Source of the DNA: an uncultured Erysipelotrichaceae bacterium
GTDB lineage: Bacteria > Bacillota_I > Bacilli_A > Erysipelotrichales > Erysipelotrichaceae
Direction of reading: 5' to 3'
NCBI GenBank assembly: GCA_946537255.1
Contig: CAMNFS010000014.1
Location: 1-40,949 of the forward strand
DNA: 40,949 nt
The notes beneath the pieces were generated by a model. The model saw only the letters and a program-made list of their open reading frames with translations. It was not told where the DNA came from and ran no database searches. The first letter of the stretch is position 1. Each line of letters begins with the position of its first letter. Made by a program: the position numbers and the translations under genes. Shown here in pieces: positions 37,227 through 40,607 of the stretch.

Positions 37227-37423
37227 TTCAGATGCTGGGGAAACGGCTTTAGCCATGGCTTTCCTCTGTCTCATGACGGACAAACCGGAAATCGCAGCAG
37301 TCCCCGCCCTGACACAGGGTTTTGGTGCGGATGAAATCCATGAAGGGAAGGGAACCGCAGTTGATGATATCCGCTTGGCAGCACATACTGCCGAGCTTCA
37401 TCAGATCATGCATGGCATGGAAT

Positions 37424-37602
37424 GTGCAGGAATTGCATATCTTGATATTGCAGAATATGCATATTATGCATATTTTCTGTTACTTGATGTGCAGAAAATG
37501 CTTTTTTAGAGAATGGACAGGATGCAGAAAATACAGACAGGAATAAAGATGATATGCAAATTCTGCATTTTGAAAATTGACAGGACATGCAGATAATGCA
37601 TA
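37424..37602. promoter_or_regulatory. Phased array of TGCA-N5-TGCA operator boxes
   Basis: The 404-base gap before the XRE-nucleotidyltransferase gene holds thirteen TGCA words between 37409 and 37625. Six boxes of the form RTGCA-N5-TGCAT, some with one degenerate arm, start at 37424, 37457, 37489, 37522, 37554 and 37587. Steps are 33, 32, 33, 32 and 33 bases, or about three helical turns. An extra box at 37448 overlaps the second, and a half box at 37621 precedes the ATG. Every box is a dyad with arms 9 bases apart. The last box fills the spacer of the promoter. The likeliest reader is the XRE domain encoded next door (inference). Confidence 0.75.
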
Positions 37603-37606
37603 TTCT
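37577..37606 (+). promoter_or_regulatory. Promoter of the XRE-nucleotidyltransferase gene
   Basis: A perfect TTGACA (37577-37582) is followed after 18 bases by TATTCT (37601-37606). The operator box at 37587-37601 lies in the spacer, where bound repressor would block RNA polymerase. The ATG is at 37631, with a weak AGGTG 13 bases upstream. Confidence 0.65.
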
Positions 37607-37630
37607 ATTGATAGGTGAAAGTGCAAAGAT

Positions 37631-38137
37631 ATGTCGGAACTCAAGGAATGCAGAATCAGAAAACGACTGACGCAGCAGGAGGCTGCCTCCTGGATCGGTA
37701 TTTCTCTGCGTTCCTATGTCACCTATGAAAATGACATCTCGAAGAGAAGCACACCGAAGTACCGCTTTCTGATGCAGGAAATGGAACGGCTGAATCCTCT
37801 GGATGAGGAACACGGCATCCTGACCGTGCGGGAAATCCGTTCTGCCTGTGAGGAGGTATTCTCACAGAGCCCGGTCGATTGTTGTTTCCTGTTTGGCTCT
37901 TATGCGGAAGGAACGGCGAAGGAGGGGAGTGATGTGAATCTTGTCATCTCCTTCAGTCAGGAACCGCGGGTTCAGCTTTGGGAAGAGGAACTGGAATCCA
38001 TGCTTCATAAACGCGTTACCTTGCTGGATGTAAAAGACCTGGCCAATAATGAAACACTGATCCGGCAGGTGCTGAAAGGAGGAATCCGAATGATTCCGCA
38101 GACGGACAACGTCAGCGGAAAAAAAAGACCTGAATAA
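37631..38137 (+). CDS. XRE-family HTH fused to MntA-like nucleotidyltransferase
   Basis: This 168-residue two-domain protein has a helix-turn-helix of the XRE type at residues 5-55 (RIRKRLTQQEAASWIGISLRSYVTYEND). Residues about 68-155 form a minimal nucleotidyltransferase domain with FLFGSYAEGTAKEGSDVNLVI. The family motif is GS-x10-D-x-D; here G89, S90 and D101 are present but the second Asp is Asn103, so catalysis may be lost or altered. MntA proteins act as antitoxins that AMPylate HEPN toxins. No HEPN gene is adjacent: upstream is the operator array, downstream a secreted protein. The HTH and the boxes suggest autoregulation. Confidence 0.85.
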   Translation: MSELKECRIRKRLTQQEAASWIGISLRSYVTYENDISKRSTPKYRFLMQEMERLNPLDEEHGILTVREIRSACEEVFSQSPVDCCFLFGSYAEGTAKEGSDVNLVISFSQEPRVQLWEEELESMLHKRVTLLDVKDLANNETLIRQVLKGGIRMIPQTDNVSGKKRPE

Positions 38138-38189
38138 ATTCTCAGAAGAAATGACAGTCATAAAGATTGCTTTGAAAAAGGAGGAAAAG

Positions 38190-39140
38190 ATGAAAAAACT
38201 GCTTCAGAGACTTCTCGCATGCACCTGTGCTTTTGCCGCAGTCATGTTGACCTACGCGGTACCGGCTCAGGCTCAGCTCAACGGCGGCGGCCCTTACGGG
38301 GACATCGACGGCTATTACACCTGGGAGATCAATGGGAAAGGATGGACCGTCTATTCCCAGAACGGATATTCCTGGATCTATGATGACCGCGGCAACCGGA
38401 CATATCTGGATGCCTATGGCAATCAGCTTTACAATGTGACCCCGGCAGCTGCCAAGACGATTACCCAGTACAGTCTGACCTACAACAGCACCTACAATGG
38501 TGTGGTTGTCTATTCCAACCCGGACGGCAAGCTGTATACCGTCAGCAGTGACGGACGTCTGAACGCGGTCGGCGGCTCTGCACCGGCGCCTGCCCCGCAG
38601 CCTGCCGCAAACAACTACACGTTCTTCTATTCCTTCACCACTCCGAGCGGGTACAACATCTATACAGATGAGCGCGGCAACAACTGGTGGTTCGCGGCCG
38701 GCGGTATCCCTAACCGCTGGACAGGCGGATATCCTGCCGGAAGCTATTGGAAACAGGGCATCGGCAACTACACGTATTACTTCTCCTATGTTTCCAATGA
38801 AGGCTACTATATCTATACCGATGACTACCATAACTTCTGGTGGTTCAGCGCGGATGGAACACCGCACATGGTCAGCAGAGGCAGCGGCGGAGGATCCGGC
38901 GGTGACCGTGATCCGAACGTGGATTATACCCGTACCAATACCCTGACAGCGGATGGTCAGAAACAGATTGTCTATGTCGGCCAGTACTGGAAGGCACCGT
39001 CCACCGTATCCTGGACACCTGCGGGATGCCGTCTGCTTGGCTGGGACTATGCGGAAGGCACCGGCTATGTCCGCTGGAAACCGGGCGCATCCATTAAGAA
39101 TACCGGCCAGGATCTGATGCTGTACGCGGTTTACGGATAA
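38190..39140 (+). CDS. Secreted aromatic-repeat protein with Flg_new-like C-terminus
   Basis: This 316-residue protein has a signal peptide (MKKLLQRL...PAQA, cleavage likely after Ala28). The mature part is rich in Tyr, Trp, Gly and Asn. Related units are seen: DGYYTWEINGKGWTVYS; YNGVVVYSNPDGKLYTVSSDG; SGYNIYTDERGNNWWFAAGG; and EGYYIYTDDYHNFWWFSADG, the last two being about 60 residues apart. A PAPAPQPAA linker (near 138) and a Gly/Ser linker separate regions. The last 65 residues (PAGCRLLGWDY ... WKPGASI ... DLMLYAVYG) resemble the InlB B-repeat/Flg_new module of surface proteins. AAGGAGG lies before the ATG at 38190. There is no LPXTG motif, so it is secreted or loosely wall-bound. The ligand is unknown. 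Confidence 0.82.
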   Translation: MKKLLQRLLACTCAFAAVMLTYAVPAQAQLNGGGPYGDIDGYYTWEINGKGWTVYSQNGYSWIYDDRGNRTYLDAYGNQLYNVTPAAAKTITQYSLTYNSTYNGVVVYSNPDGKLYTVSSDGRLNAVGGSAPAPAPQPAANNYTFFYSFTTPSGYNIYTDERGNNWWFAAGGIPNRWTGGYPAGSYWKQGIGNYTYYFSYVSNEGYYIYTDDYHNFWWFSADGTPHMVSRGSGGGSGGDRDPNVDYTRTNTLTADGQKQIVYVGQYWKAPSTVSWTPAGCRLLGWDYAEGTGYVRWKPGASIKNTGQDLMLYAVYG

Positions 39141-39251: not shown

Positions 39252-40553
39252 CTATTCCACAATCTGTCCAAAGAACAGAGGCTCCGGGGTTCCGTTGTCA
39301 GTAAAGAGGATGAAGTGGAAGGGATGATCTGCCTTGAACACCTTGATAATCGGTTCTTCTTCAAAGGGTGCAGCACCTTCCGTCATCGCGATGACAGTTG
39401 CGGCGGCTGCCTCAATACCGCTTTCTTCTGTTTTGATCCGCGCCTTCTGTATGATATCCGTAATATACAGTTTCATCTCTTCGCTCATGATGGAAAAATC
39501 CGCATTGGATGTAAAAGCAAGCTCTGCGCCGCGGGCCTTGCAGAAATCGATCAGCTCATTTTCAGAAAGAGAGGTTTCCGTTTCAAACTTCGGCAGGGTG
39601 ACGTCAACGGTCTCAAGACTTGCGGAGCGAAGCTTTTCCATTGCGTTTTCCGAATTGCCTAATATAAACAGTGCATTGACACCGCCATGCATGGGAAGGC
39701 AGACCATTGTTGTTTCATCATCTTCGTAAAACGCAAATTCACTTCTCTGATGCATGAACTCCTTTTTTACGATTCGCTGATCACTGGCAGTAAAATCACC
39801 TTCTCTGGTCAGATATTCATCGAATGAATCTATCCAAGCGCTGCGCAGATAAAGTGCATTCGCCAATAAGAGATCAGAAGAAGAGAGGTCATTGCTGATC
39901 TTTGGAATAAGGCCATTGGTATTTTCACTGATCCAGCCGTTTACCGCATCAGTGATCCTGTTTTCCGGGACGTTCTCTGCCACAGCACCGTAATGTTCCT
40001 TTACATATGCCTGATACGTATTCGAAAGTTTCCCGGTGGATTTTGTGTTGCGCCAAATGGAATTAACAAGACGGAACGCGCCATCCGGTGCTTTTTCAGA
40101 ATCCCCATAGTACTTCTTGTTTTCTTCAAACTCATCTGCTGCGTTTTTCAGCCACTGGTTAAATCTGTTTTCCGAGGCGGCAACTGAGGAATACCATTGG
40201 TTCAATTCCTCCATGCTGGAAAATCCCATTGCGGTAAGCAGTTCAGCCTTTGTGTCGCTGTCAGCGCCGGCAGCCGCCAGCGCCAGAGCGGCACGGAAGG
40301 AGGTGGGTGAAATGATGTAGTTCTGATTCTGATAGCCTTTATCTTCAATAAAGCGAATCAGTGAAGCAGTAAAGTCATCTGTTTCGTGTGAATTCGGAGA
40401 CATGACTGAAGATGGCTCTTCTGTTTTCTGTACAATAGGCTGATCCGTTGACAGCGGTGTTTCCTGAGGCGATGAATGTGCCGTACCGCATCCGCTCAGC
40501 AGTGCCGCAAAAGCAAATAAAACTTTCTTAAAAGAAAACGATTTTTCCCTCAT
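39252..40553 (-). CDS. Serpin lipoprotein (serine protease inhibitor)
   Basis: This 433-residue protein has a lipoprotein signal ending LLSGC (lipid-bearing Cys22), a Ser/Thr/Pro-rich linker of about 40 residues, then a full serpin fold: NYIISPTSFRAALALAAAGADSDTKAEL, LVNSIWRN, LANALYLRSAWIDSF, VTLPKFETET and FKADHPFHFILF. The reactive-loop hinge EESGIEAAAATVIAMT (from residue 376) has the small residues needed for loop insertion, so it is probably inhibitory. By canonical counting P1-P1' is Gly393-Ala394 (TEGAAP), which would suit an elastase-like protease; loop-length variation could shift this. The start at 40553 has AAAGGAG about 7 bases upstream and places the lipobox correctly. It would be anchored outside the membrane. 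Confidence 0.93.
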   Translation of the reverse strand: MREKSFSFKKVLFAFAALLSGCGTAHSSPQETPLSTDQPIVQKTEEPSSVMSPNSHETDDFTASLIRFIEDKGYQNQNYIISPTSFRAALALAAAGADSDTKAELLTAMGFSSMEELNQWYSSVAASENRFNQWLKNAADEFEENKKYYGDSEKAPDGAFRLVNSIWRNTKSTGKLSNTYQAYVKEHYGAVAENVPENRITDAVNGWISENTNGLIPKISNDLSSSDLLLANALYLRSAWIDSFDEYLTREGDFTASDQRIVKKEFMHQRSEFAFYEDDETTMVCLPMHGGVNALFILGNSENAMEKLRSASLETVDVTLPKFETETSLSENELIDFCKARGAELAFTSNADFSIMSEEMKLYITDIIQKARIKTEESGIEAAAATVIAMTEGAAPFEEEPIIKVFKADHPFHFILFTDNGTPEPLFFGQIVE

Positions 40554-40579
40554 AATGGTCTCCTTTGAATACCGTTGAA

Positions 40580-40607
40580 CAGGTACCTGAATCCAATATG
40601 ACATATT
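40580..40607. promoter_or_regulatory. Two short palindromes upstream of the serpin
   Basis: CAGGTACCTG (40580-40589) and AATATG-A-CATATT (40595-40607) lie 27-54 bases before the serpin ATG. Either could be an operator for this gene. No promoter boxes are clear enough to call. Confidence 0.3.

Follow-up and report, generated by a model that had tools for sequence, protein, structure and literature searches.

Among the predicted toxin-antitoxin modules of prokaryotes, HEPN-MNT is said to be the most abundant (PMC7641770). Its transcriptional control is hardly known, because the MntA proteins studied so far have no DNA-binding domain; MntA of Shewanella nevertheless binds and represses its own promoter, though it is devoid of a helix-turn-helix (HTH) domain (PMC4621449). 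The principle of a multi-site operator is not new, since extended operators with wrapping have been described for other toxin-antitoxin systems and for plasmid copy-control systems. The operator of the antitoxin Rv2827c contains four repeats in about 130 bp, and binding to it is negatively cooperative (PMC7319586). As to an operator for an XRE-MntA protein, no description was found in the open-access papers searched, a coverage that leaves out most subscription journals.

The DNA analysed here (the window) is a stretch of 40,949 nucleotides from an uncultured Erysipelotrichaceae bacterium, in which the original prediction had placed, at 37409-37635, a helically phased array of TGCA boxes upstream of an orphan XRE gene.

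The gene product and its module

The gene at 37631-38137 (plus strand) encodes a protein of 168 residues, which carries an XRE-type HTH domain (about residues 1-55) and a Pol-beta-type minimal nucleotidyltransferase domain of the MntA type (about residues 66-155). The matches to XRE-type HTH models are weak (HTH_19 at 6.5e-05, HTH_31 and HTH_3 weaker still) and all lie under the Pfam cut-offs; the nucleotidyltransferase part passes the cut-offs for Polbeta/NTP_transf_2 and matches PF18765 at 3.5e-11. The NCBIfam model of the MntA antitoxin, NF047752, gives 7.7e-11, but with 41.8 of 60 bits this too is under the cut-off. In a profile search, MntA structures were the best match for the product and the HTH part matched the HTH of PezA. 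An AlphaFold2 model made with a 40-sequence alignment (mean pLDDT 87) consists of an N-terminal domain of five helices and a nucleotidyltransferase domain of alpha/beta type, and its best matches among solved structures are MntA/MNT antitoxins. Thus the name 'orphan XRE gene' was correct inasmuch as the protein is of XRE type and the array belongs to it, but profile and fold matches identify an XRE-MntA nucleotidyltransferase fusion and not a plain XRE protein. We assign the gene to a HepT/MntA (HEPN-MNT, type VII) toxin-antitoxin module, as its antitoxin.

GTDB contigs yielded no homologues when the protein alone served as query, and GTDB genomes yielded 445 related stretches when an alignment did, 80 of which were kept; these come mostly from Lachnospiraceae, Erysipelotrichaceae and other Clostridia of gut or rumen. 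Within the family of the window genome, 22 of 273 genomes have a homologue, and the homologues in gut Firmicutes are mostly 45-60% identical to the window protein. All homologue counts given here concern loci related by descent and are therefore not independent.

HepT, a HEPN protein, is encoded directly downstream in 62 of 85 homologous loci, usually with an 8-base overlap with the antitoxin gene. At the window locus it is absent downstream of the gene, and no match to PF01934 (HepT family) was found anywhere in the whole genome. The slot usually held by HepT is occupied by a gene (38151-39140, plus strand) that begins 14 bases 3' of the antitoxin gene; its product is secreted, contains repeated units rich in tyrosine and tryptophan, and matches no Pfam model. 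Further on, at 39252-40604 (minus strand), lies a gene for a lipoprotein-like secreted serpin (PF00079, 1e-62). The GS...DxD plus third Asp active site is not intact either: the window protein reads GS, D101, N103 and T130, so that two of the three catalytic aspartates are changed (D103N, D130T), whereas all three are kept in 79 of 85 loci. Since HepT is missing and D103 and D130 are replaced, the window copy is, judging from its sequence, a degenerate toxin-less relative and not a working module. With the toxin gone and the active site altered, regulation by DNA binding is probably the only role left to the surviving protein.

The array and its counterparts upstream of homologues

Direct counting confirmed 13 TGCA words within 37409-37635, starting at 37409, 37425, 37434, 37449, 37458, 37467, 37490, 37523, 37555, 37564, 37588, 37597 and 37622. 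The chance rate had been put at roughly one per 215 bases; the whole window has 140 TGCA words (about 0.7 per 215 bases), and the density of the array is unmatched by any other stretch of the window. TGCA-N5-TGCA occurs seven times in the window for an expectation of 0.69, and five of the seven are inside the array. The six dyads start, as predicted, at 37424, 37457, 37489, 37522, 37554 and 37587, i.e. with steps of 33, 32, 33, 32 and 33 bases, but the perfect form RTGCA-N5-TGCAY is found at only four of the six places. When the region 37401-37640 was submitted to 2000 dinucleotide shuffles, no shuffle attained 13 TGCA words, five dyads or six places in register, and the highest values seen were 11, 3 and 4, respectively. 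The array is real and its 32-33 bp period is a genuine design.

The dyads, numbered from the promoter outwards, were scored with a homologue-derived matrix for which the 99% control level is 7.7; having been trained on exact TGCA-N5-TGCA sites, the matrix favours such sites, while the histogram of TGCA-TGCA distances given below is independent of it. Dyad 1 (37587-37601, ATGCAGATAATGCAT, score 15.8) and dyad 2 (37554-37568, ATGCAAATTCTGCAT, score 21.6) match the proximal and the distal dyad of homologues, respectively. Dyad 3 (37522-37536, ATGCAGAAAATACAG) is in register but decayed: the word at 37523 has TACA for second arm, and the score, 5.1, is below the control level. In dyad 4 (37489-37503, GTGCAGAAAATGCTT, score 16.5) the word at 37490 is followed by TGCT. 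Dyad 5 (37457-37471, ATGCATATTATGCAT, score 20.2) is a perfect palindrome, overlapped by an extra arm (37449-37461, TGCAGAATATGCA, score 14.8) that is outside the 32-33 bp series. Dyad 6, the most distal (37424-37438, GTGCAGGAATTGCAT), has the perfect form and scores 19.6. Dyad 1 sits, as had been claimed, between a -35 hexamer TTGACA (37577-37582) and a -10 hexamer TATTCT (37601-37606), both on the plus strand, in a spacer of 18 bases. A further half-site, the TGCA at 37622-37625 just 5' of the start codon, extends the dyad series; leaders resembling GGAGGTGCAAATATG are present in most homologues.

Upstream of homologues the same organization is found. The 150 bases preceding the gene contain 470 TGCA words in 88 homologous loci, whereas 82 control stretches of the same length, taken further upstream, contain 52, and the commonest TGCA-TGCA distances in the 88 loci are 9 (134 times), 33 (91 times) and 24 (69 times). 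The palindrome shared by these loci is RTGCAAAWWTTGCAY, in a symmetric consensus A-N-RTGCAAAWWTTGCAY-N-T. Neighbouring dyads are 30-34 bp apart with a mode at 33, the spacing being about 30-32 in some loci and 33-34 in others. In most loci the proximal dyad is preceded by TTGACA or a similar hexamer and followed by a TATAAT-like or TAATAAT-like sequence. In-register sites are occupied in 77 homologues at frequencies of 97% for site 1, 94% for site 2, 27% for site 3 and at most 6% from site 4 on; the dyad overlapping the gene's own promoter is conserved together with the gene in nearly all of these 77 and is present in the window. In nearly all homologues a TGCA half-site is also present between the Shine-Dalgarno sequence (GGAGG) and the ATG, in phase with the dyads (L042, L052 and L075 are examples), where it could possibly serve as a roadblock or in control at the level of translation. 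The original prediction had made its operator reading depend on finding the period upstream of homologues; conserved as it is before most of them, the reading survives. We conclude from these comparisons that the array is a conserved family element and not a one-off. Its length shows no correlation with the loss of the toxin: a link between longer arrays and absence of HepT was rejected across homologues (19 orphans versus 55, Mann-Whitney p 0.69).

There is good evidence, from comparative data, that the encoded protein reads the TGCA boxes. Where homologues have diverged, the box letters follow those of the recognition helix, YQNYET and YQSYET going with CGCA...TGCG and YQRYEH with TGCC...GGCA, a covariation drawn from about six loci. 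In 268 genomes of the family, strong dyad pairs occur only at the antitoxin gene (8 genomes) or beside a HepT-like fragment (1 genome). At L160, positions 1350-1560 of a low-completeness genome, TGCA dyads with a 30-bp period lie beside an apparent HepT C-terminal fragment (minus strand) with no antitoxin gene nearby. A wider regulon in the window genome was considered and rejected: RTGCA-N5-TGCAY is found 14 times in 2.4 Mb, and both the cluster and the paired pattern only at the array. Viral contigs gave many matches to the paired pattern; among 80 such loci examined, three have strong dyad pairs and none the antitoxin gene. Two of the strong-pair loci were inspected, and one of them (L187, positions 2588-2634) holds GGGTGCAAGATTTGCACCC twice, at a distance of about 34 bp, within an apparent phage replication region, with no XRE-MntA gene.

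Probable growth of the array and its possible function

The window has six in-register places, of which five (sites 1, 2, 4, 5 and 6) are strong, as compared to the usual two and a maximum of four in the 77 homologues. To see how the units resemble each other, we split the array into three 65-bp units of two dyads and compared their likeness outside the boxes with that of shuffles. The likeness of units 4-3 and 2-1 was reached by 0.5% of shuffles, that of 6-5 and 2-1 by 0.4% and that of 6-5 and 4-3 by 7%. Because two of the three pairs resemble each other beyond shuffles, it is likely that a two-dyad core has grown to about six places by tandem duplication. On its left the array adjoins a minus-strand gene (37249-37413), which is what remains of the C-terminal part of an ATC_hydrolase (PF14196) gene; its identity to the longer copies found in the genus is 63-75%. 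At the nucleotide level this homology breaks off at about 37407, just where the array begins, which suggests that this position is probably the left edge of an acquired module inserted into the ATC_hydrolase gene. A divergent promoter for the minus-strand gene was rejected as an explanation of the distal boxes, which do not serve that gene since it is only a remnant with homology up to about 37407.

The array is very probably an autoregulatory operator on which cooperating dimers of the XRE-MntA antitoxin-type protein would repress their own promoter; the shared palindrome, the promoter geometry and the helix-linked box letters of the homologues argue for this reading. Each RTGCA-N5-TGCAY dyad would be occupied by one dimer; a separation of about three helical turns would place the dimers on the same side of the double helix, where they would cooperate in binding. 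Occupation of the proximal dyad, inside the -35/-10 spacer, would then block RNA polymerase. The two-dyad core together with the leader half-site would constitute the family-wide operator, and extra dyads, by raising the local protein concentration, would probably make repression tighter or more switch-like. Multi-site cooperative repression is therefore what we regard as likely at the window array. The original prediction held that such an array exceeds the needs of a simple autorepressor. This applies only to the three or four upstream dyads; the whole family has the proximal two as its standard operator, and they look like simple autorepression.

One alternative is that these three or four distal dyads are functionless leftovers of a decaying tandem duplication. 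The decay of dyad 3, the damage to one arm of dyad 4, the absence of HepT and the altered active site all fit such a history, but dyads 5 and 6 score like functional ones and have kept the register, and we hold it to be a serious though rather improbable possibility. Another is that the protein polymerises over the six dyads, and that wrapping, a filament or a loop goes beyond autorepression, e.g. in silencing of the flanking DNA. With six places kept in register along some 180 bp of a single helical face, at a compatible 32-33 bp spacing, the array would permit this, and precedents exist in the spiral of about 120 bp formed by CcdA-CcdB (PMC3920265) and in CopG/ParD2 (PMC8251345). However, the decayed dyad 3 interrupts the continuous series, and most homologues have two dyads only, so that polymerisation is not needed for the function of the family; we consider it unlikely. 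Also improbable is the composite picture of a toxin-less, enzymatically dead antitoxin turned into a dedicated regulator, with an operator expanded to six phased sites, a cooperative assembly over about 180 bp and the leader half-site of the family as a second, roadblock-like layer of control.

It could also be that the binding unit spans TGCA-N20-TGCA, its heads being separated by about 24 bp, and that neighbouring units meet at the 9-bp dyad. Arrays should therefore start and finish with a half-site, and a lone TGCA does recur 22-24 bp beyond both outer dyads in homologues whatever their number of dyads; in L052, TGCA is found at -127, -103/-94, -71/-62, -38/-29 and -5. Bridging thus accounts for the conserved end half-sites, which one dimer per 9-bp dyad does not, and 24 is the third commonest distance between TGCA words. 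Yet the 9-bp distance is constant while the gap takes values between 21 and 25, as expected of a rigid 9-bp dimer site, and a single XRE dimer would suit the A/T-rich symmetry inside the dyad; on balance we find this arrangement a real but quite unlikely alternative. Finally, that the array is a product of chance or a low-complexity repeat in an A/T-rich region where TGCA is locally frequent has a negligible probability and was rejected, in view of the shuffles and of a position and spacing kept in dozens of homologues.

Relation to described systems

A large branch of gut Firmicutes has HEPN-MNT antitoxins joined to an XRE domain and, before their genes, a very probable operator that is highly conserved, easy to recognise and fixed in its geometry. 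This makes it a ready system for studying how cooperativity depends on spacing (30-34 bp) and on the number of sites (2 to 6).

With HepT/MntA of Shewanella (SO_3166/SO_3165; PMC4621449, PMC7641770) the window protein shares the MntA-type nucleotidyltransferase fold and, as far as repression can be predicted here, autorepression by the antitoxin through palindromes near the -35 and -10 hexamers. The homologues share with HepT/MntA modules an antitoxin gene located 5' of HepT and overlapping it. Shewanella MntA differs in having no HTH and two dissimilar palindromes, in place of a fused XRE HTH and phased boxes of one consensus, and the window copy in turn is without HepT and without two catalytic aspartates. 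In S. suis, Xress-MNTss (PMC8406773) also combines XRE and MNT in one autoregulated operon with promoter palindromes, but as two separate proteins, the MNT being reported as the toxin and a phased array not being described. AbiEi and Rv2827c (type IV AbiE, PMC7319586) are likewise DNA-binding antitoxins that autorepress via tandem inverted repeats over the promoter; the antitoxin is unrelated, however, the repeats are of 23 bp with another spacing, and the nucleotidyltransferase-like toxin is a separate protein. CcdA-CcdB and CopG/ParD2 (PMC3920265, PMC8251345), for which DNA wrapping was proposed, also line up several dimers along an extended operator, but these are ribbon-helix-helix proteins with other sites, and the extended CcdAB structure is made by the complex with the toxin.
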